Below, piece after piece: positions 4,029 to 24,709 of a stretch of DNA of 29,477 bases. A program made the position numbers and the translations under genes. Origin of the DNA: a virus; the IMG/VR virus record IMGVR_UViG_3300027822_000403, positions 1 through 29,477 of that record; one strand, given 5' to 3'. Position 1 is the stretch's first letter, and the number at the start of each line of letters is the position of its first letter. The notes beneath the pieces were generated by a model. The model was not told the origin of the DNA and searched no databases. It saw only the letters and a list, made by a program, of their open reading frames with translations.

Positions 4029-4527
4029 GGCAGCCTCCTTCGATCTGATCCGAAACGGACTCGATTTCGCCGGCGATATCAAACAGACGCGCCGATGATT
4101 CAGAATCAAATCTGCATAGCGATGCCTGCGAGCACAGTGCCGCCTGGATGACTTCGAGGTTGGATTGAATTTGCGCTAGGCGCGTGGGTTGTTGTGTGCG
4201 CGCCGGATGGCGCGATAGGGATTGGTTATTCATGATGGACTCCTCTGATTGAGATAGAGAGCTGCCACCATTGAGACTAAGCAAGAGGGTGGCAGGCTGC
4301 ACAGAGTTAGTCTTACCGCTCAGAGAGGCGGCGCTCCGAAGAGCCTCCATACAGCCTGCCAAAAACTGGATTTTGGGCGTAAAAAAAGCGCTTCGAGTGA
4401 GCGCTTGTGCGCTCTGATTCGGAAGACTAATTCCGGCCGTTGATTTTGCAACGGCAAAAACAGCATACGCCGAATTATCGGCCGCCGTCAAGCATTGATC
4501 GCAAAAAATTTTCACCGGGCGGTTCAT
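4021..4527 (-). CDS. Icd/Ash-like ORF overlapping a C4-like RNA, 168 aa
   Basis: The ATG at 4527 overlaps the TGA of the alpA-like gene. The first 95 codons run through a structured RNA region (4271-4430) whose layout matches C4 antisense RNA units, where the overlapping frame is called icd or ash (in phage P1, inhibition of cell division). An in-frame ATG at 4233 has GAGGAG 7 nt upstream and gives a 70-residue protein (MNNQSLSRHP onward), which may be the main product. The long N-terminal part may be translated mainly as part of the regulation. Confidence 0.5.
   Translation of the reverse strand: MNRPVKIFCDQCLTAADNSAYAVFAVAKSTAGISLPNQSAQALTRSAFFTPKIQFLAGCMEALRSAASLSGKTNSVQPATLLLSLNGGSSLSQSEESIMNNQSLSRHPARTQQPTRLAQIQSNLEVIQAALCSQASLCRFDSESSARLFDIAGEIESVSDQIEGGCHE
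4273..4430 (-). ncRNA. C4-like antisense RNA unit of element A
   Basis: In the leftward transcript the order is: target copy TTAGTCTT (4430-4423), a terminator hairpin (4405-4381), GGCAGGCTGT (4360-4351), a GAGGCTC/GAGCGCC hairpin, antisense AGACTAA (4313-4307), closing arm CAGCCTGCC (4299-4291), and a second target TTAGTCTC (4280-4273) followed by AATGGTGGC. This is the layout of C4 RNAs, which pair with the leader of the icd/ant mRNA and shut off translation. The same layout with compensating changes recurs at 24506-24665. Confidence 0.6.
4381..4405 (-). terminator. Terminator hairpin inside the C4-like unit
   Basis: Minus-strand AGCGCT, a short loop, then AAGCGCT followed by a run of T residues. 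It sits between the first target copy and the C4-like fold, exactly where element B has its own GCGC hairpin with T6. It probably ends short leader transcripts. Confidence 0.6.
4462..4491 (-). promoter_or_regulatory. Probable promoter of the C4-like transcript
   Basis: On the minus strand a -35 TTGACG (4491-4486), an 18-bp spacer and a -10 TATGCT (4467-4462) predict transcription from about 4455. That is just upstream of the first target copy at 4430, and inside the icd-like frame. Confidence 0.5.
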
Positions 4528-4799
4528 GCTGCAGAGTCGCCGGTATGTTGCCGCATCCTGCGAATTTTAAATTCGATAAGGTTTTTGACGCGGTAACGGA
4601 CCAGTCTGCCCGCCTTGATATAAGGTAAATTATAACGGCCGGTCGAGCGCCAGATGGCTAAAGTGCGTGCCGATGGCCCCAGGATTTTGGAAGCGCCATC
4701 CTGGTCAACTTCGGCCGGCAGATTGTCCACAGGCACGCCGAGTGAGTTGGCGGCCTCTGCCAACAGCTCCGTGAACAACTGATTGTTTTCGGAATGCAT
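4524..4799 (-). CDS. AlpA/excisionase-type HTH protein, 91 aa
   Basis: A small DNA-binding protein with a MerR-like winged helix: DGASKILGPSARTLAIWRSTGR (about residues 34-55), then LPYIKAGRLVRYRVKNLIEFKIRRM. Such proteins regulate integrase or act as excisionase in P4-like elements. The gene lies just downstream of the iteron-like block (4817-4987), which makes those repeats its likely binding sites (inference). It overlaps the Icd-like ORF by ATGA. Start: ATG at 4799. Confidence 0.75.
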   Translation of the reverse strand: MHSENNQLFTELLAEAANSLGVPVDNLPAEVDQDGASKILGPSARTLAIWRSTGRYNLPYIKAGRLVRYRVKNLIEFKIRRMRQHTGDSAA

Positions 4800-4816
4800 A
4801 TATACTCCAGCGAATG

Positions 4817-4987
4817 TAAGTGTCGTAAAACATATTAAGTGTCGCCGAGTATGTTCCGCAACTAAAAGAGAGAATCCACGACAGTTAACCAGCGAAATAT
4901 GCCGAATAACTGTCCGACACTTAAATAGCGGGAAATGCGATTTAAGTGTCCGACGCTAAAATGGTGAAAAAGGCGGTTTAAGTGTCG
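4817..4987. repeat. Iteron-like cluster of TTAAGTGTCG motifs
   Basis: Copies are seen at 4817-4825 (TAAGTGTCG), 4835-4844 (exact), 4915-4924 (inverted), 4942-4950 (TTAAGTGTC) and 4978-4987 (exact), plus an inverted variant CGACAGTTAA at 4879-4888 and a degenerate one at 4952-4960. Two copies form imperfect dyads with neighbours. The last copy spans the stop codon of the 309-residue gene. Five or more copies in 170 bp is typical of replication iterons or a regulator's operator array; this is also the leader of the alpA-like gene. Confidence 0.75.
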
Positions 4988-5907
4988 TTTTTAAGATTAG
5001 TGCTCGGGTTGCGGAAGAATGATTCTTCGCCAACCAGTATATCGCAGTAGTCTTTGCAGATTCTTTGAACGCTCCGTTCATCAAGAATTTCTTTAAACCC
5101 TCCCAGGTAAAACAGATCGGCGATGACCGCCGGGAACAGGCGCTTTTTGTTCGGATCGCGATTGAATAAGTAAATGTGACGTTTAGCTAGGTCCATCACG
5201 AAAATCCGCTCCTTGAATTTATCGCTAGCCCGGTTTATTGGGAACAAATTTTTTTGGTAGATGTGCTGCAATTTGCGCAAAGTCTGGTTGAGCGAATCTT
5301 CCGTTTTTTCTGGTAGAGAAGTATCAAGGCCATGGAAGTTGCGGAATACATTGTAGTCATTCAGCGTTTGCATATTCGCTAGTGCCGACTCTAAACTTTC
5401 GGCGCAATTTTGAACAGCTTTTTTATATTCCGCTGGCGTGTGTATTATTTCTCGGTAGTGATATCTGCTCAAACAAACAGAAACCGCTGCCATCCATCGA
5501 CCACTTAACTGCATTGCTCGGCACGCGGCATCTAAATGTATTTTGGCGGAAAATAATCTATCATCGATATTGTGGAGTTGCCCGCCAAAATTGTCGTTGT
5601 GCACGGACCGACGTAATACCCAATCGATCTTGCTTTCGAGATATCTTTCAACATCAGTTTCCGTCTCGTGCTGTTTGAATAGCCGCTTAGATGCCCGCTC
5701 ATACACTGCGCTATTTTCTTCAGCAAGCCATTTATACGCCCGCAATTGCGAGATTTCATAGAAGTCATTCTTCTTTTTTTCTTGCAAACCATAAATCGTC
5801 GAACGGACCGCGGATTCGAGATTGCTCATTTCCAAGTTCGGCCTAATCGAGCGATCCTTGCCACAGGCTTCAATCAGATCATCAAAATCTTGTTTTGTTG
5901 GAAACAC
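4978..5907 (-). CDS. Hypothetical protein, 309 aa
   Basis: A GTG start at 5907 with a GAAGG stretch upstream. The protein is soluble, helical and charged, with no membrane segment, no Walker motif and no recognised fold. It sits between the integrase and the iteron-like block, and its stop codon is part of the last repeat. Genes in this position in integrative elements are often accessory or defence cargo, or replication initiators. The iterons beside it make an initiator possible, but no winged-helix signature is evident. Confidence 0.6.
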   Translation of the reverse strand: MFPTKQDFDDLIEACGKDRSIRPNLEMSNLESAVRSTIYGLQEKKKNDFYEISQLRAYKWLAEENSAVYERASKRLFKQHETETDVERYLESKIDWVLRRSVHNDNFGGQLHNIDDRLFSAKIHLDAACRAMQLSGRWMAAVSVCLSRYHYREIIHTPAEYKKAVQNCAESLESALANMQTLNDYNVFRNFHGLDTSLPEKTEDSLNQTLRKLQHIYQKNLFPINRASDKFKERIFVMDLAKRHIYLFNRDPNKKRLFPAVIADLFYLGGFKEILDERSVQRICKDYCDILVGEESFFRNPSTNLKNDT

Positions 5908-5942
5908 AACGCACCTTCAAACGCTGAGCCTTCAAGAAGGGA

Positions 5943-5998
5943 ACCAAGCCAAGGCGGTGAAGGTAACCGCCTTTTCGGTCCGTCGACCTAGGCTTGGT
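5943..5998. terminator. Nested inverted repeat, terminator between integrase and 309-aa gene
   Basis: An inner stem AAGGCGGT (5951-5958) and ACCGCCTT (5965-5972) with a 7-nt loop is followed on the plus strand by a T-run. An outer pair ACCAAGCC (5943-5950) and GGCTTGGT (5991-5998) brackets it. It would insulate the integrase gene from the next leftward gene. Confidence 0.55.
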
Positions 5999-6006
5999 AA
6001 ACTGGA

Positions 6007-7230
6007 TTATAGCTGCTTTTCGATATTGGTTACTGTCGCCGTTTTCTTCACGCCGGCGGCTTTCAATATGAAATCGGTAATTTGCTGCATTGGTTTTCTC
6101 AGCCGCTCAACATCAGAGATGATATATCCGGCTGTCACGTCGCCTGTCATTTTGTGGTTGAGTAATCGCTTTAGTGCATAGGCAGGAATATCTAAAGATT
6201 CAGCTATGGTGCAGAACGTCCTGCGCAGATCGTGCAAGATAAACGAAATACCGGATTGTTCTATGACGTTTTGAATCTGTGATCTCACATCGATAATGTG
6301 CCCGGCCGTCCCGGAACCCGGAAAGACAAAATCATTTATTGCTGACGGTTCGCGCCTGGCGATCATGTCATAGAGGTAATCAGTCAGCGGCAGAATATGT
6401 GGGACCCTGTTTTTTGTATCGCGGATAGTAAAAGTGCGGTTCGTTAAGTCTACGTCGCACCATTCCAGCTTGGCCGCTTCCGATCGCCGTAAGCCGGTAA
6501 ACAGTATCAATCTGAAGTAGTCGCGCGCATTATGATTATCAAGACTCATCACCGCTTCAAGCCATACCTTTAAATCATGCGGCTTGATGTATGTTTGTCG
6601 TCGCTCGACGCGATACCAAGCCCTCGTGTGACTGATCCGCGTTACCGGGTTGTCGGGAAATAGCGGGTTTCCGTCCTCATCTTCGTATTCGCCGGCCGCA
6701 AAATTGAACAGAGCACGAAGCACCCTCATGGTGTTGTTTGCCCGTGCCGGCGATCGTTTACCGATATCGGTGTGACGCTTTGCAACCATGTCGCGTGTGA
6801 TCTCGGACAACGGCCTGCCGCCCCAGTCAGGCAGTGAGTGTCGCATGATCTGCTTGTAGTCGTGGACTGTGCCAGGCTTCAGTGACTTTCGCGCTTTAAG
6901 ATAGTCTTGAAACACTTCCGCCAGTGTCACGCCTCGCACCTTGGCGGCCTTTTTCTCTCTGATAGGGTCGGCGCCTGCTGCCATCTTCGATATTGCATCA
7001 AGCGCCATGCGCCGCGCCTGTTCGATCGTCAGGTACGGATATTTTCCAAGCGTCACACGAACTGGCTTTCCGCCGGCAATCCGGCGAAACACGCAGAATG
7101 TTTTTGTTCCTGTCGCCGACACACGAATTTGCAAGCTGTCTACTTTGGTGTCCCGGTAGGTCGTTCGGTCCTTCTCCGGCAGTGGCAGGTTGTCAAGGTT
7201 GCGCTTAGTGAAATTTATCCATTGGTCCAT
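6007..7230 (-). CDS. int: Tyrosine integrase of element A (P4 family), 407 aa
   Basis: Site-specific recombinase for integration at a tRNA gene. The N-terminus holds the DUF4102 arm-binding domain (about 1-95, GKYPYLTIEQARRMA), then the SAM-like core-binding region (about 100-205) and the catalytic domain. Catalytic residues are R248 (TGLRRSE), K273, H333 and R336 (HDLRRTF), H359 (LLNHK) and Y369. The length is normal for the family, so it should be active. It lies at the right end of element A, 140 bp from the tRNA-Lys fragment. The ATG at 7230 falls inside a partial copy of the attachment sequence. Confidence 0.93.
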   Translation of the reverse strand: MDQWINFTKRNLDNLPLPEKDRTTYRDTKVDSLQIRVSATGTKTFCVFRRIAGGKPVRVTLGKYPYLTIEQARRMALDAISKMAAGADPIREKKAAKVRGVTLAEVFQDYLKARKSLKPGTVHDYKQIMRHSLPDWGGRPLSEITRDMVAKRHTDIGKRSPARANNTMRVLRALFNFAAGEYEDEDGNPLFPDNPVTRISHTRAWYRVERRQTYIKPHDLKVWLEAVMSLDNHNARDYFRLILFTGLRRSEAAKLEWCDVDLTNRTFTIRDTKNRVPHILPLTDYLYDMIARREPSAINDFVFPGSGTAGHIIDVRSQIQNVIEQSGISFILHDLRRTFCTIAESLDIPAYALKRLLNHKMTGDVTAGYIISDVERLRKPMQQITDFILKAAGVKKTATVTNIEKQL

Positions 7231-7231
7231 G
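7219..7231. repeat. 13-bp copy of attachment sequence over the integrase start
   Basis: ATCCATTGGTCCA occurs here and again at 7379-7391 inside the tRNA-Lys fragment. The surrounding bases are also alike (a TTA before, GGGTT after with a 4-nt insertion here). The copy covers the ATG and first codons of the integrase. Confidence 0.6.
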
Positions 7232-7268
7232 CTGGGTTACGCGGGGGTTACGCCGTAAAGAAAACTCA

Positions 7269-7357
7269 GGAAAACTGCAGAAAATTTGAGAATACCATAA
7301 ACGCATGATACGTAAAAGATAATGCGTTTAGAGAAAAAATGGGAAAACTACGGAAAA
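7269..7357. repeat. Integrase arm-type repeats and dyad
   Basis: GGAAAACTnnnGAAAA occurs twice in the same orientation (7269-7284 and 7342-7357). Between them is an inverted repeat TAAACGCAT (7298-7306) and ATGCGTTTA (7322-7330). Paired direct repeats beside an integrase gene and an att core are typical of arm-type binding sites; the dyad may be a regulator site or terminator. Confidence 0.45.
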
Positions 7358-7371
7358 CAGCTTTTTAGGTA

Positions 7372-7415
7372 ACTCTTAATCCATTGGTCCAGGGTTCGAA
7401 TCCCTGACGGCCCAC
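7372..7415 (+). other. tRNA-Lys(CTT) 3' fragment, attachment site at the junction of elements A and B
   Basis: The sequence runs from the anticodon loop (ACTCTTAATCC) through a variable loop and a T-arm (CAGGG TTCGAAT CCCTG) to the acceptor strand ACGGCCCAC. It matches the 3' half of bacterial tRNA-Lys with anticodon CTT. The 5' half is missing and no CCA follows. A 3' tRNA fragment next to an integrase is the hallmark of an att site. Two integrases flank it, one on each side, so it probably marks the boundary of tandem elements. The intact tRNA is not in the window. Confidence 0.75.
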
Positions 7416-7492
7416 TTTAAAATCAACAACTTACGATGGCACGCTTTTCGCGTCCTGACAACCTCCTTTTTACTCGGTACAAATCGGGACGT

Positions 7493-8566
7493 TTATTCCT
7501 TGCCGGCCGGGTCAACTAAATCCGGCGTTACGTCGTAGATTCTTAACATTGCTAGGTCGCGGTGACCGGATGCTGCGAGTTTGTCGCCTTTCGTATCGGA
7601 AATCCCTCGGCGCTTCAGGTCATGGAAGGTGAACTTTTGTTTGATTGCCGGGTATTTCATCAGTCGTTGCCATGCGGTTTGGAATGTCGATTCACGCAGT
7701 CGGCCGCTGTGTACACCAACGAAAAAATAACGCTGCTCAGGCTTGATCGGCATCGGATGCCGATTCTTGTTCATGCGTTCTAATCTGATTCGCTTGGCAT
7801 CATTTATCGCAGCGCGAAGTCGTGGCGTCCATCGGGTAATATTGTCCTTCGATCCTTTGCGTCTGGATACCAAGAGGCCGTCGGGGAGCTCGTTGGCGTC
7901 GGTGAGGTCGAGCACCTCGGCGAGCCGCATTCTGCAAAGGTAGGCGATTTCCATGGCCGGTGCCATGTAGGGGCTTCCTGATTTGGCGGCGCAATCGATG
8001 GCGGTTTTATAATCTGGTTCGGCGACGTAGTGTTGCCGCGGCGCTGTTTTCAGCTTGCTGATGCCGCGTGCCGGGTTGGATTTCACTTTTTCGTATTCGT
8101 ACCCCCAGGCGAATACGCGGGCGATGTAGGATAGCTCTTTGTTGGCTCGGCTGCGCGATTCTTCGGCCCTTTTGTCGCGGTATTTGCGGACCAGTCCCGG
8201 TGACCATGAGTGCAGTGGTGCGTCGCCGAGCTTTCCGGTCGAGGTTTTACGCTCGCAGATCGCGTTGTGACAGTTGATATAGTCTTTATGGGTTGCTGCG
8301 CTGAGTTCGGCCCAGGTTGGTGATTTTTGGAAGTCGAGAGACAGCGAGCGGAATGTGTTTGCCCTGGTATCGGTGATGGCGTTGAATGCCTGCCAGATTT
8401 CTCCGATGGATGCGTCTGCCCGGCACAGCCGCTTTGATCGGCGCTTACCGTCATGGTCTTTGTATCGGAACATCCAACGGCCGTTGCCGGACGGGTCGAA
8501 CCATACATTGTCCGGCAGCTTTTTTGGATCGATGCCTGATGGTGTGTTCTTGCGGGGTCGGTTCAC
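7493..8566 (-). CDS. int: Tyrosine integrase of prophage B, 357 aa
   Basis: A phage integrase with an N-terminal arm domain (KDHDGKRRSKRL), a core-binding domain and a catalytic domain. Likely catalytic residues are R214 (CRMRLAE), H315 (FHDLKRR), H335 (ASGHRD) and Y344 (RIYDV). The box normally reading HxxR has HDLK with an arginine following, a substitution I recall from integrases found with DUF4224 partners. The GTG start at 8566 overlaps the stop of the DUF4224 gene. It is the last gene of the leftward early operon, 78 bp from the tRNA-Lys fragment. Confidence 0.9.
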   Translation of the reverse strand: MNRPRKNTPSGIDPKKLPDNVWFDPSGNGRWMFRYKDHDGKRRSKRLCRADASIGEIWQAFNAITDTRANTFRSLSLDFQKSPTWAELSAATHKDYINCHNAICERKTSTGKLGDAPLHSWSPGLVRKYRDKRAEESRSRANKELSYIARVFAWGYEYEKVKSNPARGISKLKTAPRQHYVAEPDYKTAIDCAAKSGSPYMAPAMEIAYLCRMRLAEVLDLTDANELPDGLLVSRRKGSKDNITRWTPRLRAAINDAKRIRLERMNKNRHPMPIKPEQRYFFVGVHSGRLRESTFQTAWQRLMKYPAIKQKFTFHDLKRRGISDTKGDKLAASGHRDLAMLRIYDVTPDLVDPAGKE

Positions 8567-8766
8567 AGGATTTCTATTGGGTCGTTCGGTTGAGACTCGG
8601 ATTTTACACCCAGCGCTGCGTTGAGGGCGTCGACCGTGGTAAAGATTCCGGATTTGCCATGCAGCACACGCACGCCCTGGCGCATCAGGCAGCGTTCGAT
8701 GTCGCTTTGGCGGTGGTAGCCGGTGATTTCTTCGAGCTGTGCCGATGTCAGGATGCGTTCGTTCAC
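8563..8766 (-). CDS. DUF4224-like protein, 67 aa
   Basis: A small protein beginning (V)NERILTSAQLEEITGYHRQSDIERCL with LMRQGVRVLHGKSGIFTTVDAL, the pattern of DUF4224 proteins that accompany phage integrases and may act as recombination directionality factors or DNA binders. A GTG at 8766 is preferred because upstream in-frame sequence looks unlike protein; no clear Shine-Dalgarno is seen. It overlaps the integrase start by 4 nt. Confidence 0.7.
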   Translation of the reverse strand: MNERILTSAQLEEITGYHRQSDIERCLMRQGVRVLHGKSGIFTTVDALNAALGVKSESQPNDPIEIL

Positions 8767-8804
8767 GGTCGGTGGTCTGGCTTGTCGATAGTTTCCACTG
8801 GCGA

Positions 8805-8885
8805 TTATGGGCAGTTCATCGCTGTTTCTGCCAGCCCTGGCACCACGCCGTTCGCTTTGACGGCGGCAGTTTCGCCGTTGATCAT
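8805..8885 (-). CDS. Possible 26-aa peptide coupled to the DUF7220 gene
   Basis: The ATG at 8885 overlaps the TGA of the upstream membrane protein gene (ATGA) and encodes MINGETAAVKANGVVPGLAE and six more residues. The overlap fits the pattern of this operon, where almost every gene junction is ATGA or GTGA. The size makes it uncertain. Confidence 0.35.
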   Translation of the reverse strand: MINGETAAVKANGVVPGLAETAMNCP

Positions 8886-9100
8886 TGTGCTTTTGCGTGA
8901 AGTCGGTTGAAAATCCGGCGCCAGATGTAGCAGCGGGTGATCGATACTGCCGTGAATATCGCAACGATGCCGGCATTTTGCGCCGGCGTGACCGGGAACC
9001 CGAACAGCGGATAGACGATCATGCCGAGCGCGTAGGAGATCGCCATGCCGGTGGCGACGTTGGTGACCGATTCGATGATGGATTGGGTTCTCGTTTGCAT
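8882..9100 (-). CDS. DUF7220-like two-helix membrane protein, 72 aa
   Basis: MQTRTQSIIESVTNVATGMA starts a small protein with two membrane helices: about residues 13-33 (VTNVATGMAISYALGMIVYPL) and 41-58 (QNAGIVAIFTAVSITRC), ending in a basic tail (IWRRIFNRLHAKAQ). This is the classic form of a widespread prophage family annotated DUF7220. Its function is not known. Start: ATG at 9100. It would lie in the inner membrane. Confidence 0.75.
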   Translation of the reverse strand: MQTRTQSIIESVTNVATGMAISYALGMIVYPLFGFPVTPAQNAGIVAIFTAVSITRCYIWRRIFNRLHAKAQ

Positions 9101-9106
9101 GTTTGA

Positions 9107-9376
9107 TCAATTGGTACGATCGGGCAGTCTCGGCCACAACTTTAGCAATGCCTCCTGGCGTTTGCGTTGCAGATCGGAGTCTAGCCTCGGCGCCATTGGT
9201 GGCTTGGACTTCCGGTAATTTTCTCTAGTCCGTGCTGCCATACACTTTTTGCAATAAGTCTGGATTCCATCGCCATGCTTGCCGAACGCCGCAGCGGCCT
9301 TGTAGATTGGCTTCCCGGCACGCTTGGAACAGTCCGGGCAGTGTATTCTGCCGTCCGGCAATATTCGTTTTTTCAT
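9107..9376 (-). CDS. Zinc-ribbon-like small protein, 89 aa
   Basis: The ATG at 9376 opens a basic protein with two CxxC knuckles (HCPDC and YCKKC) separated by about 25 residues, followed by a highly basic helix (ARTRENYRKSKPP). This looks like a small zinc-binding nucleic-acid-binding protein, possibly an HNH-like or zinc-ribbon remnant, but no HNH catalytic histidines are seen. It lies just downstream of the sliding clamp gene. Confidence 0.65.
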   Translation of the reverse strand: MKKRILPDGRIHCPDCSKRAGKPIYKAAAAFGKHGDGIQTYCKKCMAARTRENYRKSKPPMAPRLDSDLQRKRQEALLKLWPRLPDRTN

Positions 9377-9390
9377 TTGTCGCCGCTTCC

Positions 9391-10485
9391 CTAAAGCCGA
9401 ATCGGCATGATGCAGTATTGATAGATGTCGGACTCGGGCCGGATGAAGATGGCGCCTCTGTCGGTGTTGCCTTCCTGGTCCGGCAGGTGAAGGATCGCGG
9501 TGCCGGCGATGCCTTTTGCTGCGTCGAGGAGATATTTGTAGTTGCATCCAATGGTCATGGGTTCGCCGTCGTACTCGCATTCGATGGTCGCGATGGATTC
9601 CTGGTCGCCTGTGTCGACGGATGTCAGTGTCAGTTGGCCGGGTTCGATGTCCAGCCGGATGCCGAAGTGTTCTCCGGTCGTCGATTCGACCCGGTTGATC
9701 GTCGAGGCGAGATTGTCGGCATCGATCCGGGCGCAGTTGTCGCTTCGGCGCGAGAGAATTGCGCCGAGGTCTGGAAACTTGCCGGCGATGCATCGGCAGG
9801 TGATGGTTGTCCGTTCGTTTTCGATTCGGACGGCATCGCGAGTCATCGTCATTTGCATATCGCCCGCTTTGATCGCTTTGGCGATCGTTTGAGCGGCTTT
9901 TTTCGGCAGGATGGTCGATGCCTTTGTTTCCGCCGGGCCGTCAGGCAGATCCAGTAGGCTTCTGCCAAGCCGGTGCCCGTCGCTGGCGTTGAATGTGAGT
10001 GTGCTGTTGTCGCATTCGATGTTGATGCCGTTGAGAAAGCCCCTGACATCGTCATGCGCGGCACATTGTTCGACGTGGGCGATGTGCCTGCCGAACGCCT
10101 GGGCTTGAATTGTGAGCGTTGCGCCGTCTTTTGGCGGTTCGGTCAGCGGATACTCGCTGCCGTTTAAGATGTTTAGCCGATGGCGGCTGCGGGCTGTTTT
10201 GATCGCGAGTTTGTCGCCATCCACTTTCAATTCGATGGCGCCTTCCGGGGCATTGCGCACAATGTGCGTGAGTTTGCCGGCATGGACGCAGATGGCGCCG
10301 GGTTCTTCGATGTCAGCCGGCATACTGGTTGCGATCTCCATTTCGAGGTTGGAACCGGTGATGGTAATCCGACCATCCACGGCCTCAATCAGGACGCAAT
10401 CGAGGATTGGAATCGTGGATGTTCGCGCGACAGCTGCGCCGGTGATCGCCAGCGCATCCATCAGGTTGTTTGTCGTGAGCTTCAT
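9391..10485 (-). CDS. dnaN: Phage-borne DNA polymerase III beta sliding clamp, 364 aa
   Basis: A full-length beta clamp homologue of about the host length (366 in E. coli). It begins MKLTTNNLMDALAITGAAVARTSTIPIL, keeps the three-domain pattern (ASDGHRLGRS motif near residue 165, FPDL near 235) and ends YQYCIMPIRL, matching the canonical C-terminal MPMRL. It should form a ring that tethers a DNA polymerase. It lies in the leftward early operon and is coupled by ATGA to a short upstream ORF. It is diverged from what a chromosomal copy would be, and no dnaA or recF is adjacent. Confidence 0.9.
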   Translation of the reverse strand: MKLTTNNLMDALAITGAAVARTSTIPILDCVLIEAVDGRITITGSNLEMEIATSMPADIEEPGAICVHAGKLTHIVRNAPEGAIELKVDGDKLAIKTARSRHRLNILNGSEYPLTEPPKDGATLTIQAQAFGRHIAHVEQCAAHDDVRGFLNGINIECDNSTLTFNASDGHRLGRSLLDLPDGPAETKASTILPKKAAQTIAKAIKAGDMQMTMTRDAVRIENERTTITCRCIAGKFPDLGAILSRRSDNCARIDADNLASTINRVESTTGEHFGIRLDIEPGQLTLTSVDTGDQESIATIECEYDGEPMTIGCNYKYLLDAAKGIAGTAILHLPDQEGNTDRGAIFIRPESDIYQYCIMPIRL

Positions 10486-10571
10486 ATGCCGGGCACTAAT
10501 TCCATCCAGCGGCGGTCGATGCGCTGTGCGTGGTCCGTGGTCTCGTTTGCATGGTCACGCGATTTCTCCAT
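10482..10571 (-). CDS. Small ORF, 29 aa, coupled to the clamp gene
   Basis: The ATG at 10571 encodes a charged peptide MEKSRDHANETTDHAQRIDR and nine more residues, ending in TGA that overlaps the clamp ATG. No clear Shine-Dalgarno is visible and it overlaps the next small ORF by 17 nt, so only one of the two may be real. Its value is that it would bring ribosomes to the clamp start, which has no Shine-Dalgarno of its own. Confidence 0.4.
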   Translation of the reverse strand: MEKSRDHANETTDHAQRIDRRWMELVPGI

Positions 10572-12385: not shown

Positions 12386-12732
12386 AAAAAATGACTGTCC
12401 GTGTCGAGTCTTTTGATGCCGGACTGGACCGATTCAAGCGTGCATTTGAGAGCGCCGAATATCAAGGCGAATTCGTCACGTTCGAATCAATGCGCGATAT
12501 GATGAGCGCCCTAACGTCCAGTCGCTGGGAATTGATCAGGGCATTGCAGGCAGAAGGGCCGATGAGTCTGCGTGCATTGGCGCGCCGACTCGGGCGTGAT
12601 GTTAAAAATGTGCATCGAGACGTCGCGGCGCTGAAGGATCTCGGACTGATTGACGATCACCGCGATGGTGGTATTTGGGTGCCCTATGATGAAATCGCGG
12701 CAGAGCTTTCGCTGAGGCGGGATGCTGCGTGA
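12382..12732 (+). CDS. tumA: TumA-type HTH antitoxin, 116 aa
   Basis: Partner of the TumE toxin. The C-terminal two thirds hold a winged helix-turn-helix (SSRWELIRALQAEGPMSLRA, then LARRLGRDVKNVHRDVAALKDLGLI) of the type found in TumA antitoxins, which bind DNA and the toxin. The ATG at 12382 overlaps the toxin stop. The triple-arm operator at 12070-12097 is its likely target (inference). Confidence 0.8.
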   Translation: MKKMTVRVESFDAGLDRFKRAFESAEYQGEFVTFESMRDMMSALTSSRWELIRALQAEGPMSLRALARRLGRDVKNVHRDVAALKDLGLIDDHRDGGIWVPYDEIAAELSLRRDAA

Positions 12733-12755
12733 TGCCGTTGGATCCAGGCAATAAA

Positions 12756-12777
12756 AAACCCGCCGGGTGACGGGTTT
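12756..12777 (-). terminator. Terminator between converging transcripts
   Basis: Arms AAACCCG (12756-12762) and CGGGTTT (12771-12777). On the minus strand the stem is followed by more T residues (from the A-run at 12753-12758), so it best serves the leftward transcript of the 12804-14108 genes. It may also stop the tumA message. Confidence 0.6.
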
Positions 12778-16007: not shown

Positions 16008-16082
16008 CGCGGGGTGGAGCAGTGGCAGCTCGTCAGTCTCATAAGCTGAAGGTCGCAGGTTCGAATCCTGCTCCCGCAACCA
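16008..16082 (+). tRNA. Initiator-like tRNA-Met (anticodon CAT)
   Basis: A complete cloverleaf: acceptor CGCGGGG, D-stem GAGC/GCTC with a short 7-nt loop, anticodon arm TCAGT-CTCATAA-GCTGA, variable loop AGGTC, T-arm GCAGG-TTCGAAT-CCTGC, acceptor TCCCGC-A, A73 and encoded CCA. It has the C1:A72 mismatch and the A11:T24 pair typical of initiator tRNA, but its anticodon stem lacks the three stacked G:C pairs initiators need. It lies inside prophage B and is followed by a terminator. Confidence 0.85.
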
Positions 16083-18030: not shown

Positions 18031-18267
18031 ATGGATGAGCACAATATCATTGCCGATCTGGCGACTGTCAAAGCGCAGCTGGAGGGGCATAAGAACGATC
18101 GCGAAGAGCTGATTAAAAGGGATGAGCAGATTTTCGCCGCGATAGAAGGTCTGCGCAAAGAAATGAACCAAATGAAAGGCTTCATTGGAGGGGTGGCGTT
18201 TGTATTCACGGGCATTGGGACGGCCGTCGGAATGGCAATTTCATATCTTTCCGGCGTTGGTCATTGA
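18031..18267 (+). CDS. Coiled-coil membrane protein, XhlA/holin-associated-like, 78 aa
   Basis: A coiled coil (LATVKAQLEGHKNDREELIK through AIEGLRKEMNQMKG) is followed by one glycine-rich membrane helix (FIGGVAFVFTGIGTAVGMAI) and a short tail. This layout is found in XhlA-like and similar small phage membrane proteins. No lysis genes are adjacent, so a lysis role is uncertain. It lies between the dNMP kinase and primase genes. Confidence 0.6.
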   Translation: MDEHNIIADLATVKAQLEGHKNDREELIKRDEQIFAAIEGLRKEMNQMKGFIGGVAFVFTGIGTAVGMAISYLSGVGH

Positions 18268-18290
18268 TTTGTACGAGATGGAGATTGCCG

Positions 18291-19127
18291 ATGGATTACT
18301 CTGAGATAATCGATCAGATGGCGGATGTTGGAATCGGCGGGCTGCCCGCATCGGATTTGGTCGCCGACGGCAAAATACACCGGTTCAAAACGGCCGGCGA
18401 CAAAAAGAAGAATGGCTGGTTCGTTTTGTTCGATTTCGTCGGCGATTCCGGAGATCGGTTGATTGCCGGGGCATTTGGCGATTGGAAACTCGGGGTTTCC
18501 GAGCATGTGAAGGTCAATTGCGAGCGGATGAGCGATGCGGAGTGCGAGCGGTTCGTGCGCGAGCAGGAGCGGGCGAGAAAAGCGGCGCAGGAAGAGCGTC
18601 GGCTGGTGGCCGAACAGACGGCGGATCGGGCGGAGAAAATCTGGCAGGGGTTGCCGGACGAAGGTCAATCGCCATATCTCGATCGCAAGAAAGTGCGCGC
18701 GTTCGGGTTGCGATTCTCGCGTGGGAGCATTGTCGTTCCGGTGCGGGATATCGATGGCAAGCTGTGGGGTTTGCAGTTCATTGCCGCCGATGGCTCGAAA
18801 AAGTTTCTGACCGGGACGGCTAAAAAGGGTCGGATGCATTTGATCGGCGATCGTGACAGCGTCACAGTCATCGGCGTCGCCGAGGGGTATGCCACGGCAG
18901 CCAGCGTGCATCAGTCATGTGGGTGGCCTGTTGCGGTGGCGTTCGATGCCGGAAATCTGAAAGCAGTGTCGATGGCATTGCGGGGCAGGCATCCGGATGC
19001 ACGCATTGTTGTTTGCGGAGATGATGATCTAAAAACCGAGGGTAATCCTGGCAGATCTGCCGCTGAAGCAGCTGCTGCTGCCGTCGGCGGCATTGCGCTG
19101 TTTCCCGGGCTGCCAATTGCTGCGTGA
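18291..19127 (+). CDS. Toprim-domain primase, 278 aa
   Basis: The start MDYSEIIDQMADVGIGGLPA has GGAG upstream; an upstream TTG is less likely. The N-terminal part (HRFKTAGDKKKNGWFVLFD) is a small domain found before phage primases, then a charged helix, then a Toprim region with VIGVAEGYATAASVH (catalytic glutamate) and ARIVVCGDDDLKTEGNPG (DxD). It should synthesise primers or act with the helicase encoded next, to which it is coupled by GTGA. An N-terminal zinc finger of CHC2 type is absent. Confidence 0.85.
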   Translation: MDYSEIIDQMADVGIGGLPASDLVADGKIHRFKTAGDKKKNGWFVLFDFVGDSGDRLIAGAFGDWKLGVSEHVKVNCERMSDAECERFVREQERARKAAQEERRLVAEQTADRAEKIWQGLPDEGQSPYLDRKKVRAFGLRFSRGSIVVPVRDIDGKLWGLQFIAADGSKKFLTGTAKKGRMHLIGDRDSVTVIGVAEGYATAASVHQSCGWPVAVAFDAGNLKAVSMALRGRHPDARIVVCGDDDLKTEGNPGRSAAEAAAAAVGGIALFPGLPIAA

Positions 19128-20761
19128 AATCCGTGGATTGGAACGATTTGCTGGTTTCTGGCGGTACCGATGAGGTACGGCGCCAGATCGAAGCGGGCAT
19201 TGCAAAAAACGATCGATCACAACAGCAGGTCGAAGAATCGTGGAAGCGATTTGAAAAGCGCATCAATGACGCTGTCGAGGATTTCGATGGACTGATCGCA
19301 ATCGCGGATGAGATTCAGTCAGCTGACATTCATCCGGCGCATTGCGATCGATTGCTGAAACAGATTGCCAAGGCTGGTCGTGTAAGCGTCGCTTCGTTGA
19401 AAAAGAAGCGCGGAGACGGCGGGTCAGGCGGGTTTTCTGCGGATAATTTGGATTGGCTCGATGAGCTCAACGGCCGGCATGCCATCGTGCCGGTATCGGG
19501 CAAGGTCTTGGTGATGAATCAGGAATACGATCCGGCCCTGGATAGAAACCTGGTGACGTTTTCCGCGCGTCAGGATTTTCTGCTGCGCTACGAAAACCAG
19601 AAAACGTTCGTCCGAGGCACTCTTATCAGCATTGGATTGGCCTGGCTGGAGCATCCACGACGACGGCAATACGATGGAATCGTGTTTGCTCCTGGTAAGA
19701 CGGTCGACGGGCATTTCAATCTATTTCAGGGGTTCGGTGTGCAGCCATCGGAGAGCGGGTCATTCGCACTGTTCGAGGAGATGTTGACCGATATCATCTG
19801 TGGGGGTAATTCCGAGCTGTTCTGTTATGTCTGGGGCTGGCTGGCGCATCTGTTTCAGAAGCCTGCCGAGCTCCCGGGTACGTCATTGGTGCTGCGGGGT
19901 AAGCAGGGGACAGGGAAAAACACGTTCGTCGATGCGATCGGGCAGCTGGTTGGTAAATCGCATTACATTTCGCTGACCAGTTTGCAGCAGGTCACCGGGC
20001 GGTTTTCCGGGCACCTGGCGGATGCGTTGCTGATATTTGCCAACGAAGCGATATGGGGCGGCGATAAATCGGCGGAAGGTGCGTTGAAGGCGATGGTGAC
20101 CGATTCGCTCTCTGCGATCGAGCGCAAGGGGAAGGATATCGTCGCGATGCGCAATTACAAAAGGCTGATCGTTGCCAGCAACGAGGATTGGATCATTCCG
20201 CGCGGAATGGACGATCGGCGATTCATCATCATCGATGTGTCGGACGAGCACAAGGAGGATCACGCCTATTTCAAGGCGATCAAAAAACAGTTGATGCGGG
20301 GCGGGTTGGAAGCTTTGATGCAGGCATTGATGGATGCCGATATATCAGGGTTCGATCCAAGGAAAATTCCTGAGCGTGTGCGACAGTCCGGCTGGGAGTT
20401 GAAAATAAGGTCCGGCGGGTCGGTTCTGCAATGGTGGTTTTCCATACTGGACCAAGGATATCTGACAAAAGAAGGCGGGGGCTATGGCGACGAACCATTT
20501 TATCTTTGGCCGGAAAAAATGGAGAAATCAGAATTGCACCGGTTGTATCTGAGATGGTGCGAGCAACACAGATTGCAGCATCCTGAAATCGATGTCGTAA
20601 TGGCGAAAAAATTGCGCGAATGGGGGCTTGCTTCGAAACGACAACGGGAAAATGGAGAACGCATCAATCGATATCTGTTTCCATCGCTGGATGAGTTGCG
20701 TTCCGTTTTTTCAATCATATGCAATATTCCATTATCGTATTGGGATGGTGATAGTGAATAA
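19124..20761 (+). CDS. DUF5906 replicative helicase, 545 aa
   Basis: Superfamily 3-like helicase of the NrS-1 polymerase/DUF5906 group. Walker A GKQGTGKNT at 259-267, Walker B LLIFANEA at 301-308, a sensor ASNED with N353, and arginines at 365-366 (DDRRF). The N-terminal 100 residues are helical and carry no polymerase motif, the primase being a separate gene upstream. GTG start at 19124 overlapping the primase stop. The inverted-repeat region immediately downstream is the likely origin. Confidence 0.88.
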   Translation: MKSVDWNDLLVSGGTDEVRRQIEAGIAKNDRSQQQVEESWKRFEKRINDAVEDFDGLIAIADEIQSADIHPAHCDRLLKQIAKAGRVSVASLKKKRGDGGSGGFSADNLDWLDELNGRHAIVPVSGKVLVMNQEYDPALDRNLVTFSARQDFLLRYENQKTFVRGTLISIGLAWLEHPRRRQYDGIVFAPGKTVDGHFNLFQGFGVQPSESGSFALFEEMLTDIICGGNSELFCYVWGWLAHLFQKPAELPGTSLVLRGKQGTGKNTFVDAIGQLVGKSHYISLTSLQQVTGRFSGHLADALLIFANEAIWGGDKSAEGALKAMVTDSLSAIERKGKDIVAMRNYKRLIVASNEDWIIPRGMDDRRFIIIDVSDEHKEDHAYFKAIKKQLMRGGLEALMQALMDADISGFDPRKIPERVRQSGWELKIRSGGSVLQWWFSILDQGYLTKEGGGYGDEPFYLWPEKMEKSELHRLYLRWCEQHRLQHPEIDVVMAKKLREWGLASKRQRENGERINRYLFPSLDELRSVFSIICNIPLSYWDGDSE

Positions 20762-20795
20762 ATATACAAAGACCACTTCTAATGAATGGTATTGG

Positions 20796-21060
20796 CCCGG
20801 GTGGCCAATTGCCGGCCAGGGTGAGCATAAGGCGTAAACCCAGCATTCATGCGGTCTGTCCCGGGTGGCCCGGGTGACCATAGTGAATCTCGCGCGTATA
20901 CGCGCGTACGTGTCTTTTCATAAGCCATGATTAATATTTAGCAAACAGAAAGAAAATGCCCTATACGCGTAAACATTCACTATGGACACTATGGTCACCC
21001 GGGACAGACCGCATGAATGCTGACTTTTGTGACCAAAAAGTGTCCCGGGTGGCCAGGGTG
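20796..21060. repeat. Large inverted repeat and CCCGGGTGGCC repeats, candidate replication origin
   Basis: Two 47-nt arms (20842-20888 and 20975-21021) share 26 identical outer bases (starting AGCATTCATGCGG) and CCATAGTGAAT at the inner end. Between them are a 16-bp perfect palindrome CGCGCGTATACGCGCG (20891-20906) and an AT-rich segment. CCCGGGTGGCCA occurs outside both arms (20796-20807 and 21044-21055) and CCCGGGTG within them. This fills the 458-bp gap between the helicase and terminase genes; no gene is seen in it. Dyads next to primase and helicase genes suggest an origin. Confidence 0.6.
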
Positions 21061-21219
21061 AAAAACGTAAGTGCTTGATAGTTGGTGTTTGATGTCAGTT
21101 TTTAATGGGTCCTTCCTGCCGAAAGCCGGTAGCGAAACAAAAGCGCGCGGTTTTTGGCTAGTGGGTGGGGGCGGAATAGGTTGTGCTGATGAGTGGCGTT
21201 GGTTGATCGGAGTGATTTG

Positions 21220-21774
21220 ATGCCGGATTTGATGACGTATGCGGAATATGCGGGCCATCGCAAGGCGAAGGGGCTGTCGGGCGGGACCGGGCAGGCTGTT
21301 GCCAAGGCGGTGCAGTCCGGGCGGATCAGTTTGATCGATGGGAAGATCGATCCGGATGTCGCTGACATCCAGTGGGCCGCCAATACACGCAAGAGGGCTG
21401 ATTATCATGGGGACAATAGGAGCGACCGCGCGGAAGGCAAAAAACCGTTGAGCGTTGGCGCCGGCAAGCCGGGTTGGGCGGATGCGAAGGCACGCACCGA
21501 AGCTGCCACAGCTGCGTTGAAAGAATTGGAGCTCGACGAGCGCCGCGGGAATCTTGTGGACAAGACCGGTACCGAGCGCGCCGCTTTTTCGCTGGCGCGG
21601 ATGCTGCGGGATGCGCTGGTGACGACATTGCCGTCGAAATATGCCGCAGAGCTTGCATCATTGTCGGATCCGTGGGAGTTGGAATGCCGTTTGCGGGAAA
21701 TCATGCGCAACGAGCTGACAGCGGTATCCGGCATGGTGATGGAAGATCCAGAGGAGATCGATGATGCGGCCTGA
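21220..21774 (+). CDS. Terminase small subunit-like protein, 184 aa
   Basis: The start MPDLMTYAEYAGHRKAKGLS has GGAG 7 nt upstream. The N-terminal helix-turn-helix (TYAEYAGHRKAKGLSGGTGQ, then AVAKAVQSGRISLIDGKID) and the C-terminal helical part (RTEAATAALKELELDERRGN) match Nu1/DUF1441-type small terminase subunits, which recognise packaging sites. It overlaps the large subunit by 14 nt. Confidence 0.8.
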   Translation: MPDLMTYAEYAGHRKAKGLSGGTGQAVAKAVQSGRISLIDGKIDPDVADIQWAANTRKRADYHGDNRSDRAEGKKPLSVGAGKPGWADAKARTEAATAALKELELDERRGNLVDKTGTERAAFSLARMLRDALVTTLPSKYAAELASLSDPWELECRLREIMRNELTAVSGMVMEDPEEIDDAA

Positions 21775-23716
21775 TGGTTTCCGTGTTTACGCGAACGCTT
21801 TCCAATCCGGGCTGATGCCGGATCCGCCGTTGATGGTCGACGAGTGGTCCGAGAAACACATGGTGATTCCCGCCGAGGCCGGTGCCGCGGAGCCGGGGCC
21901 GTATCGGATTGCGCGGACGCCATTTGCGCGCGATGTGCTGCGAGCATTGTCGCCGGAACATCCGGCGAAAAAGGTCGTGGTGATGGGCGCGTCACAATTG
22001 CTGAAAACACAGGTCGGGCTCAACTGGGTGAGCGCCATCATCTGCAATGCGCCGGCGAATGTGATCGTGCTGTTGCCGACCGACAAGCTGGCCAAGAGGA
22101 TATCGTCCCGGTTCGACAAGATCGCTCAGGTGGTAGCACCGTTGCGTGCAACAGTGGCCGCGAAACGGTCGCGGGACAATCGGAATACGTTGGACACGAA
22201 AGAGTTCAACGGCGGCACCATCTGGTTCCTCACAGGCCGCTCAGCGGGCAATTTGTCCGAGGCCTCGGCAAGATACATCTACGTCGACGAAATCGACAGG
22301 CTGCTGCGAGAGATCCAGGGAGAGGGTGATCCGATCGGCCTGGTCGAGAAACGCGCATCGACCTACGGGAAGAAGGCGAAATTCTACTACACCAGCTCGC
22401 CGACTGAAGAAGATGCCAGCCGGATCATGGAACTGTTCCTGTCCGGCGATCAGCGCCGCTATTTCGTGCCATGTCCGCATTGCGGCGAAAAGCAGACGCT
22501 GGAATGGGAGAACCTGCAGTACGACCCGGCCAAAGGCGATGCCTGGTATGCGTGCTCGGCCAACGGCTGCATGATCCGGCACGGCGAAAAAACGAAAATG
22601 CTGGAAGGCGGAGAGTGGCGAGCCTCCGAAAAAGGCGACGGCGAGACGACCAGCTATACGATATCGGCGCTTTACGCCCCGATCGGCTGGACATCCTGGA
22701 TGGATCTCTCGCGGGAGTTCATCGACGCAGAGATCGAGTTGAAAAAGGGCGATCCGGAAAAGATGCAGGTGTTTTACAACACCAGGCTGGCGCGGGTGTG
22801 GAGCCCGGCATCAGTTCACATCAAACCGGAAGATCTGATGGAAACCGCCGAAGCATTCCCGCTCGGGATCATCCCGGAAGGCGGCATCATCCTCACGGCC
22901 GGCGTCGATGTTCAAGGCAACAGGATCGAGGTCGACATTTATGCCTGGGGACCAGGCCCATGCGGCCTCGAGCCGTGGACTGTGAATACACAGGTGATCT
23001 ATGGCAATCCGACATTGGACGAACCATGGGCCGAACTCGACACCATCCTGAAAACGCCGATCAGGCACGTCAGCGGCTCGTTTCAATTGATCACGGTCGC
23101 CTGCGTGGATTCCGGCGACGGCAATTACACGCAGGAGGTCTACGAGTTCTGCCGGATGCGGCGTCGGCGCTGGATCAACGGCCAGACTCAACACGTCATG
23201 GCGATCAAAGGCTCATCCAAGCCCGGCAGGCCGATCATCGCCGGCCAGCCGAGCGCGCAGGACGTCAATTTCCGCGGCAAATACATCCCAGCCGGGGTAA
23301 AGCTCTGGTCGGTCGGCGATGCGACCCAGAAATGGGTATCCAACCGCATCGAAACGATCATGGCCAGAGACGAAAAGATGCGCCGGCAGGCGATCCACTT
23401 CAGCAAAGACCTGCCGATCGAGTTTTACCAGCAGCTGCTCGGCGAAGCGAAGCAGATCGTTCGCCACCGCGGCCGCAAGGTCACGCGCTGGATCGCACGA
23501 TCCGGCCAGCCGATCGAGCGGCGCGATATTTTACGCTATGCGCTGTTCGGAGCCGTGTTTCTCGGGCTGGATCGGTTCACGGACGAGCGCTGGGAGCGCG
23601 AGCGCGGGAAACTGGCGCAGGCCGACCTGTTCGTCACCGGATCATCCGAAACGGCCCGGGCAAAACCGACTCCGCAGGAACCGAAACAGCCATCGGGGTA
23701 CTACGTGCCATCATGA
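21761..23716 (+). CDS. Terminase large subunit, GpA family, 651 aa
   Basis: DNA-packaging motor of the lambda gpA family. A degenerate Walker A-like GASQLLKTQ lies at 76-84, Walker B YIYVDEIDR at 172-180, a zinc knuckle with C238, C241, C265 and C270, and a nuclease core AGVDVQGNRIEVDI with D383. The length is normal and no break is seen, so it appears intact. GAGGAG precedes the ATG. Unusually, it is not followed by a head-tail connector, portal or protease gene. Confidence 0.92.
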   Translation: MMRPDGFRVYANAFQSGLMPDPPLMVDEWSEKHMVIPAEAGAAEPGPYRIARTPFARDVLRALSPEHPAKKVVVMGASQLLKTQVGLNWVSAIICNAPANVIVLLPTDKLAKRISSRFDKIAQVVAPLRATVAAKRSRDNRNTLDTKEFNGGTIWFLTGRSAGNLSEASARYIYVDEIDRLLREIQGEGDPIGLVEKRASTYGKKAKFYYTSSPTEEDASRIMELFLSGDQRRYFVPCPHCGEKQTLEWENLQYDPAKGDAWYACSANGCMIRHGEKTKMLEGGEWRASEKGDGETTSYTISALYAPIGWTSWMDLSREFIDAEIELKKGDPEKMQVFYNTRLARVWSPASVHIKPEDLMETAEAFPLGIIPEGGIILTAGVDVQGNRIEVDIYAWGPGPCGLEPWTVNTQVIYGNPTLDEPWAELDTILKTPIRHVSGSFQLITVACVDSGDGNYTQEVYEFCRMRRRRWINGQTQHVMAIKGSSKPGRPIIAGQPSAQDVNFRGKYIPAGVKLWSVGDATQKWVSNRIETIMARDEKMRRQAIHFSKDLPIEFYQQLLGEAKQIVRHRGRKVTRWIARSGQPIERRDILRYALFGAVFLGLDRFTDERWERERGKLAQADLFVTGSSETARAKPTPQEPKQPSGYYVPS

Positions 23717-23952
23717 AAGCAAACGCCATGGCCACATTGGAACGGGAAATCGCCAGAAGCGGCGTCGACCCATTCCCGATCATCGAGCGCTGGCTGATGG
23801 TTGAGGGCGGGCAGGAGGTCTATCTGCCGCGCAGCTTTCGCGACGAGCGGAATGAGCGGATATGCCGGTTGTATGCGGCTGGAGTGAAGATTTGTCAGAT
23901 ATCGAAGATTTTCGGTATCAGCCGGCGGACGGTGGAGAGGATTTTGAAATGA
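23713..23952 (+). CDS. Mor-like HTH protein, copy 1, 79 aa
   Basis: The ATG overlaps the terminase stop. The core YLPRSFRDERNERICRLYAA, then GVKICQISKIFGISRRTVER is a helix-turn-helix like that of Mor/GemA-type phage transcription activators. A diverged second copy lies at 25505-25736 after the KilA-N gene. It could regulate late transcription or simply be cargo. Confidence 0.7.
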   Translation: MKANAMATLEREIARSGVDPFPIIERWLMVEGGQEVYLPRSFRDERNERICRLYAAGVKICQISKIFGISRRTVERILK

Positions 23953-23957
23953 CCGGG

Positions 23958-24239
23958 TTATTTGAATATTCCGAAGAGAAGATCGAGATAGTCGCATTTC
24001 ATGAGGTAGCCGGAGATCCAGATAGCAACACCGATCATGAAAGCTTTCACCCGATAGATCAACGACGATTTCCTGATCCGCTCGGCAAGCTGATCGGCGA
24101 ACAATCTGCCATTCGTATTGGCGCCTTTCCAGAGAAGATCGTGGATCTCATCGGTTTTGCTGTCGCTGTCACGCAGTACCTTACCATCGGCATAGCCATC
24201 CGAGATCAGCTCGCTGGCCAATTTCCAATCTTTTTCCAT
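23958..24239 (-). CDS. Leftward hypothetical protein with membrane helix, 93 aa
   Basis: MEKDWKLASELISDGYADGK starts a charged helical protein ending in one hydrophobic helix (AFMIGVAIWISGYLM) and a short hydrophobic tail. The ATG at 24239 is preferred because further upstream the frame lies opposite the divergent gene; a longer start at 24308 exists. Like the zinc-ribbon gene at 16841-17128 it reads against the operon and suggests a lysogenic cargo gene. Confidence 0.5.
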   Translation of the reverse strand: MEKDWKLASELISDGYADGKVLRDSDSKTDEIHDLLWKGANTNGRLFADQLAERIRKSSLIYRVKAFMIGVAIWISGYLMKCDYLDLLFGIFK

Positions 24240-24258
24240 CAACTCATCGGAGTTCAAA

Positions 24259-24441
24259 ATGCGTAAGTATTCTTTTTTCCAGGAAGAATGGTTCGATGTT
24301 CTCATCATTGGTATCGTGGCATTTCCTTTAGGTGCGTTTGTTCCGCCTCATATCTCTCTCCCACTCTTAATTTTGTTTTTCGCTTTATGGTGGCCAATAA
24401 AAGAATATCTCATGGATCGATTACGAGGTGACGATGAATAG
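24259..24441 (+). CDS. Small two-helix membrane protein, 60 aa
   Basis: GGAG lies 6 nt before the ATG. MRKYSFFQEEWFDVLIIGIV starts a protein with two hydrophobic helices around a proline-rich turn (AFVPPHISLPLL), ending in a charged tail. It is divergent from the leftward gene and overlaps the Icd-like ORF by ATGA. No family recognised. Confidence 0.6.
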   Translation: MRKYSFFQEEWFDVLIIGIVAFPLGAFVPPHISLPLLILFFALWWPIKEYLMDRLRGDDE

Positions 24442-24709
24442 TGTAGTTGACCTTGTTGAAAAATGGTGTTCATTGAAAGTGCACCGGCACAATCCGGTGT
24501 CGGGATTGGTCTCCCGAAGCAATCAGCGCAGACGCGCCATTCGAGCGCGTTTTTTCATGTCCGGAATTCCAGTTATGGCGGGCTGTGCGCGGGAGCCGTC
24601 AGGCTCGCCTGACCCCGGTTGCCAGGTAGACCAACCCGTACAGCCCGCCGCCTTTGATTGGTCTCAATGGTGGCGGTTTTTCCAAAAAGGCCAAGGAGAA
24701 CCATCATGA
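24434..24709 (+). CDS. Icd/Ash-like ORF over the C4-like RNA of element B, 91 aa
   Basis: AGGTGACG precedes the ATG at 24434, which overlaps the previous stop. The frame runs through the C4-like RNA and has the recurrent wording of Ash-family ORFs (NPVSGLVSRSNQRRRAIRAR, then FFMSGIPVMAGCAREPSGSP). Its last codons overlap the KilA-N gene start. In phage P1 the matching order is c4, icd, ant; translation of icd is needed for ant, and C4 RNA blocks it. Any effect of the peptide on cell division is by analogy only. Confidence 0.6.
   Translation: MNSVVDLVEKWCSLKVHRHNPVSGLVSRSNQRRRAIRARFFMSGIPVMAGCAREPSGSPDPGCQVDQPVQPAAFDWSQWWRFFQKGQGEPS
24506..24665 (+). ncRNA. C4-like antisense RNA unit of element B
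   Basis: Order: target TTGGTCTC (24506-24513), terminator hairpin (24533-24555), arm GGCGGGCTGT (24577-24586), hairpin GAGCC-GTCA-GGCTC (24593-24606), antisense AGACCAA (24628-24634), closing arm ACAGCCCGCC (24640-24649), second target TTGGTCTC (24658-24665) followed by AATGGTGGC. This is the layout of C4 antisense RNA, known from P1/P7 and many prophages to silence the antirepressor. The gene immediately downstream is a KilA-N antirepressor, as expected. Confidence 0.7.
24533..24555 (+). terminator. Terminator hairpin in the C4-like leader
   Basis: The stem CGCGC (24533-24537) and GCGCG (24545-24549) is followed by six T residues. It occupies the same place as the hairpin in element A and probably ends most leader transcripts. 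Confidence 0.65.

Follow-up and report, generated by a model that had tools for sequence, protein, structure and literature searches.

Can two mobile elements that lie side by side in one bacterium each be controlled by a C4-type antisense RNA without silencing one another? The question is raised by the IMG/VR virus record IMGVR_UViG_3300027822_000403, which we analysed over its whole length of 29,477 nucleotides (hereafter, the window). Two mobile elements of a methane-oxidising bacterium of the order Methylococcales neighbour each other there, element A with its unit on the minus strand and element B with its unit on the plus strand. A sequence-only reading had described in each a C4-like unit in which an antisense word faces two target copies, with one position covarying between the units, and had taken this as a mark of genuine base pairing and of insulation between the two. 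The results show that both units belong to the C4 family, share one layout and carry words that covary with their targets. We therefore consider first the pairing, then the switch it may serve, and finally the reasons for which the words might differ.

Two C4 units with covarying words

A scan with cmscan places both regions above the Rfam cut-offs for C4 and for isrK, with isrK directly upstream of each C4, so that two C4 units indeed stand where the sequence-only reading had placed them. AATGGTGGC is found twice in the window, each time beside a downstream target. The antisense and target words are exact and in the positions first given: in word a, the two units differ at one position, which is changed alike in the antisense and in both targets. 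The original inventory was correct for this word, but it overlooked a second covarying word, b, with which the P3 loop of C4 pairs with the Shine-Dalgarno region and with a copy in the leader.

The unit of element A comprises the following parts:
4462..4491, minus: sigma-70-like promoter (TTGACG, 18 nucleotides, TATGCT; 9 of 12 consensus positions); by chance alone the region would have 0.7 sites this good, and the match is no evidence of function
4381..4455, minus: leader RNA of isrK / P4 seqA type, Rfam RF01394, 55.4 bits (cut-off 50)
4386-4406, minus: terminator-like hairpin in the leader, from a terminator scan
4424..4430, minus: a1, leader target word TTAGTCT, exact complement of a'
4412..4417, minus: b1, leader copy of the second word, TCAGAG, a 6-nucleotide exact complement of b'
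4285..4366, minus: C4 antisense RNA, Rfam RF01695, 56.3 bits (cut-off 45)
4320..4325, minus: b', CTCTGA, in the P3 loop of C4, by sequence match
4307..4313, minus: a', antisense word AGACTAA, by sequence match, exact 7/7
4274..4280, minus: a2, downstream target word TTAGTCT, by sequence match, exact 7/7
4243..4248, minus: b2, TCAGAG, by sequence match, continuing into the Shine-Dalgarno sequence (TCAGAGGAG) of the next open reading frame (ORF)
4021..4233, minus: first ORF past the unit, 70 amino acids, weakly matching phrog_5901 (E 0.0004) and presumed to open the operon regulated by the unit

The corresponding parts in element B are:
24481..24555, plus: leader RNA of isrK / a1b1 type, Rfam RF01394, 56.6 bits (cut-off 50)
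24530-24552, plus: terminator-like hairpin in the leader, from a terminator scan
24506..24512, plus: a1, leader target word TTGGTCT, exact 7/7 to a'
24519..24526, plus: b1, GCAATCAG, partial match to b' (by eye one G-U and one mismatch)
24571..24655, plus: C4 antisense RNA, Rfam RF01695, 61.8 bits (cut-off 45)
24615..24622, plus: b', CCGGTTGC, in the P3 loop, by sequence match
24628..24634, plus: a', antisense word AGACCAA, by sequence match, exact 7/7
24658..24664, plus: a2, downstream target word TTGGTCT, by sequence match, exact 7/7
24689..24696, plus: b2, GGCCAAGG, at the Shine-Dalgarno sequence, a poor complement of the unit's own b' loop
24706..25515, plus: KilA-N antirepressor-like protein (Pfam PF04383, 2.7e-21; phrog_129, regulators; anti-repressor phrog_2127), presumed to be regulated by the unit

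With strict filters, 92 of 201 Methylococcales genomes and 24 of 369 genomes of the class contain C4, 2 of these 24 coming from the order sample. Our collection of 196 units covers 63 of these 92 Methylococcales genomes, namely every one of the 54 with at least two matches and 9 of the remaining 38, which have a single match, and is not a random sample; 195 units were usable, one being excluded for a short flank or N. Words were extracted by best match, and the argument therefore rests on the controls rather than on the raw counts.

An exact seven-base partner of the antisense window is present in both the leader and the downstream target of 157 of the 195 units. When the targets were taken from a unit of another genome with a different word, both matched in 23 of 5657 draws, and shuffling single bases within the target regions of the related units left both targets perfectly matched in 1 of 1950 trials. 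The units contain 69 distinct a words as extracted. Each position of the word is variable, yet paired in at least 181 of the 195 units per target, and at position 3, the one that distinguishes A from B, all four bases occur and are paired in 193 leader and 192 downstream targets. Since the position that changed may hold any of the four bases without losing its partner, the pairing is real, as the sequence-only reading had supposed, and the architecture of P1 is the same. The alternative, that the exact match arises by chance or as a by-product of conserved C4 sequence, is contradicted by the cross-unit and shuffle controls and by word positions that vary yet remain paired, and we regard it as ruled out for practical purposes. 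Of the 178 units whose leader match is exact, 177 allow a hairpin of at least 4 stem pairs to be drawn with the leader word in its loop (random places, 93/178); for the downstream word, the same is possible in 67 of 167 units.

Word b behaves in the same manner. Its leader and Shine-Dalgarno copies are both perfect in 91 of the 195 units, and in 162 the two together have no more than one mismatch, compared to 2.5% in the cross control and 1.1% in shuffles; these 162 units use 103 distinct b words. A is not among them because its 6 exact bases fall one short of the 7-base criterion per copy, and B likewise lies outside, with two mismatches per copy.

In the class sample, word a is perfect in both targets of 32 of 53 units and word b in 25 of 53, and 15 of the 21 a-word misses belong to two genomes, G473 and G565. 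Among viral contigs, loose patterns returned at least 120 and at least 119 stretches, palindromic matches among them. The exact pattern occurs at six loci, five of which were submitted to cmscan with one C4 match as the result, on contig L004 and away from the pattern site. L004 has two C4 units, one at the pattern site (5020-5220) with A's word TTAGTCT (read by eye) and one at 12684-12764 above the Rfam cut-off; on L007 no C4 unit was seen in the stretch read by eye. P22 gave no C4 match at E values up to 1.

The proposed switch and the points against it

We propose, with a probability of about 0.9, that the two elements each possess an immunity switch of the C4 type. A single transcript would contain, in order, the leader with a1, b1 and the terminator, the C4 RNA with b' and a', and then a2 and b2 before the regulated gene, which would be, in the P4-like island A, the small ORF that comes first after the unit and, in prophage B, the KilA-N antirepressor. 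Once processed, the C4 RNA would pair with a2-b2 to prevent the regulated gene from being translated; its pairing with a1-b1 would favour early termination. The element would thereby be kept silent, and incoming relatives with the same words would be excluded. Transcription, processing, silencing and exclusion by the units of A and B are inferred here from P1, P4 and Gifsy-1.

Several observations weigh against this proposal. The word b of B is mismatched to its own C4 loop, with two mismatches in each copy, and its b2 pairs with that loop at -7.2 kcal/mol, compared with -10.3, -9.3 and -8.7 kcal/mol for the loops of its relatives L251 and L252 and of A. L251 and L252 each have near-perfect b words of their own, unlike B. 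No promoter-like site for B passed the scan. Given this and the b2 mismatch, B may be leaky or decaying, and the mismatch itself possibly reflects decay or a half-finished change of word. Furthermore, the b-loop energies, computed on 16-nucleotide loops with poor discrimination, do not separate A from B: on b1/b2 the A loop gives -10.5/-8.7 kcal/mol with B's copies and -10.4/-10.5 with its own, and the B loop gives -6.7/-7.8 with A's copies and -10.1/-7.2 with its own. Cofolding of the whole C4 with its targets gave no discrimination either, probably because of loop-loop contacts that the program cannot draw.

Reasons for which the words might differ

At word a, the antisense of A gives -8.3/-7.3 kcal/mol on its own leader/downstream sites and still -6.9/-6.9 on those of B, because the change from A to B leaves a G-U pair. 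The antisense of B gives -14.1/-9.0 kcal/mol on its own sites and -5.7/-3.6 on those of A. The separation at word a is therefore one-sided, and the comparison of self and cross energies suggested with the sequence-only reading separates the a words in one direction only and the b loops of A and B in neither. Probably the two elements are different but leaky immunity types, distinguished by word a (one base, in three copies each) and by word b, with the RNA of B sparing A more than that of A spares B; the modelled a-word energies predict a separation that is one-sided and leaky.

The host genome itself contains repeated words. The terminase of the window record is 100% identical to that on a contig of Methylococcaceae bacterium UBA2778, a metagenome-assembled genome with at least 7 C4 units, A and B included, a count in which binning errors are possible given the nature of the assembly. 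Within it, the a word of L252 is identical to B's and its b word is different; L249 and L253 agree with each other in both words.

Across the Methylococcales, 27 of 346 co-resident pairs (7.8%) share word a, compared with 704 of 18569 pairs between genomes (3.8%); 13.3 such co-resident pairs are expected from label shuffling and 29.1 from similarity-matched pairs. Word b, as extracted, differs in 22 of the 27, and the other 5 have C4 backbones that are 0.98-1.0 identical. Both words are shared by 5 of the 346 co-resident pairs and by 13 of the 18569 between genomes, with about 5 expected among co-residents (calculated by hand in similarity bins). Near-full cross-matches, counted over ordered pairs of units with perfect a2 and b2 (143/195), were found in 22 of 450 co-resident pairs and in 449 of 19856 pairs from other genomes. 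The class sample (31/53 such units) gave 9 of 62 and 12 of 868, respectively, and among its 93 co-resident pairs word a is common to 5 and both words to 1. The co-resident comparisons thus show no sign of avoidance, and selection at superinfection remains compatible with them.

How fast the words change can be seen in close pairs, defined by at least 90% identity over 300 nucleotides downstream (n=14, of which 3 are identical); these are few and share members and genomes, and are not independent, so that the p-value of a Fisher test on them overstates certainty. In the 11 non-identical pairs, differences occupy 100 of the 465 code positions and 167 of the 2141 remaining positions of the unit. 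The excess at code sites is present in 9 of the 11 and absent in L284/L414 and L346/L357. Genome G460 has six units of similar backbone, each with an a word of its own and with almost the same b word throughout; differences among them amount to 106/314 at a sites, 30/315 at b sites and 324/2714 elsewhere.

The insulation proposed by the sequence-only reading would require that selection keeps co-resident elements from mutual silencing. The poor pairing of the B antisense with A sites agrees with it, as do the 22 of 27 a-sharing co-resident pairs that differ in word b and the faster change of code sites in close pairs. However, the A antisense pairs with B sites through G-U, the co-resident sharing of word a matches the similarity-based expectation, near-full cross-matches are commoner within genomes than between them, and UBA2778 holds the repeated words described above. 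Insulation between A and B is thus only partial at best; as a general rule it was tested and is unsupported, the sharing of words by co-residents not being below expectation, and we consider it an improbable cause of the differences. Different words within one genome are not proof of selected insulation, because the same genome also holds units with identical words.

We lean instead, with little more than even confidence, towards diversification driven by the immunity of residents that an element meets on infection, that is, at superinfection rather than in stable co-residence, as in the heteroimmunity of P1 and P7. The concerted change of code sites in 9 of 11 close pairs and the six a words carried by similar backbones in G460 argue for it, as does the P1/P7 precedent (PMC5320573). 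On the other hand, two close pairs lack the excess, and relaxed constraint, under which only the pairing needs to be kept, could also speed the change. Drift of the words under such a pairing-only constraint, without selection for new specificities, would fit the lack of avoidance among co-residents and the fact that many bases work provided that the copies agree. It is nevertheless rather unlikely in our view, though somewhat less so than insulation, as three dispersed copies have to change jointly and as code sites change about threefold more than the rest of the unit in the close pairs, few and non-independent as these are.

Some genomes carry C4 units in tandem. On contig 9 of G460 (L510, 1700-3092) four units lie about 350-600 bp apart, with two more elsewhere (L511, L512), and from ORFs read by eye the island around the four looks like one with an integrase and a replication-type ORF. 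In the chromosome of G067, which has 13 C4 units, three stand in tandem about 1 kb apart (L513, 3900-5925), and the ORF after each, again by eye, resembles a Bro-N antirepressor. We tentatively suggest that C4 units carry a two-word address (a and b, in three copies each) that changes in all its copies together and more quickly than the remainder of the unit, either word being changeable, and that stacked cassettes with different addresses in some bacteria, such as the four in a row in G460, could serve as a repertoire of immunities directed at several phages and satellites. This is a speculative extension, to which we give less credence than to the superinfection account.

Genomic setting and comparison with known C4 systems

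Element A contains an integrase (6007-7230), an int-alpA RNA, the leader, the C4 unit, small ORFs and a DUF3631 protein. The int-alpA RNA (RF02996, 70.2 bits) lies at 5929-5998, between the integrase and the next ORF. Leader, C4, a2, small ORFs and DUF3631 protein follow the seqA-CI-seqC arrangement before a putative replication operon, and the DUF3631 protein presumably replicates the element. Element B contains an integrase, a repressor, a primase and terminase subunits, and its C4 unit precedes the KilA-N protein; a tRNA-Met gene (16008-16082) and a phage-type DNA polymerase processivity factor (9391-10485) also lie within it. A 59-nucleotide repeat, 85% identical (23820-23878 and 25604-25662), is located in two ORFs, one to each side of the C4-KilA-N unit; the ends of these ORFs, read by eye, look like a helix-turn-helix segment. 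Elsewhere in the window, a 115-nucleotide direct repeat, 96% identical (26436-26550 and 27530-27644), flanks the ORF 26565-27362, which reads as alpha/beta-hydrolase-like and may form, together with the repeats, a small mobile cassette.

A and B are two further C4 switches, and the underlying biology and the principle of heteroimmunity are already known from P1 and P7. What is usefully added is the fast-changing two-word code and the tandem arrays, together with a natural data set of 195 units from 63 Methylococcales genomes that shows antisense words covarying with their targets. With it one can test how a short word comes to change jointly in three scattered places, and whether superinfection drives the change. 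In a literature search with subscription papers mostly outside its scope, no study testing co-resident C4 units with their own targets was found, the nearest being PMC5320573.

C4 is described as an RNase P-processed RNA of about 77 nucleotides that silences a downstream gene (PMC5320573), and Weinberg et al. 2010 list both the c4 antisense RNA and the c4-a1b1 motif (PMC2864571). A 2025 review restates its role in P1/P7 heteroimmunity (PMC12197685). The order a1-b1-C4(b'-a')-a2-b2 of the P1/P7 immI C4 (RF01695 with the leader c4-a1b1 / isrK RF01394) is the same as in A and B, and the gene after the unit of B, a KilA-N antirepressor-like protein, is a further likeness. The P1 record annotates a1, b1, C4, a2 and b2, with a1 and b1 marked putative. 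The words are TTGACAG and GTTAGTG in P1 and TTAGCAG and GATTGTG in P7, each in three places, and the two-word scheme is exact in P1, P7 and P4 and holds in N15 with one b mismatch. A 4-nucleotide deviation between P1 and P7 suffices to restrict cross-reactivity (Citron and Schuster 1990, as cited in PMC5320573); P1 and P7 differ by two bases in word a and two in word b, whereas a single base of word a separates A from B. Moreover, icd stands between C4 and ant in P1, whereas the KilA-N ORF directly follows the unit in B, and word b of B, unlike that of P1 and P7, is mismatched.

In P4, the CI region itself gives a C4 match, with the words GTGAGAA and TTCACAG. The P4 CI RNA pairs with seqA and seqC, and the SeqA RNA is called a structural homolog of IsrK (PMC4825925). 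Compared with this CI immunity (seqA, seqB, seqC), the gene order of element A can be read as P4-like. Its other genes gave no P4 match, the Pfam matches among the six proteins scanned being the integrase and the DUF3631 protein; the hallmark genes (alpha primase, sid, delta, psu) were not searched singly and capsid-size genes were not sought. The IsrK-AnrP system of Gifsy-1 is alike in having a leader RNA with a terminator, a downstream complementary segment and an antirepressor gene, and the methods of the same paper include paired double mutants such as G28A/C162U (PMC4825925); a trans action of the short leader RNAs in the window would be hypothetical. Finally, the Group 1 C4-like small RNAs of Acinetobacter baumannii resemble the present units in occurring many times per genome and in their variable a' loop, the part that gives specificity (PMC5320573). 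The difference is that the targets beside each unit were examined here, and that they covary with the unit.

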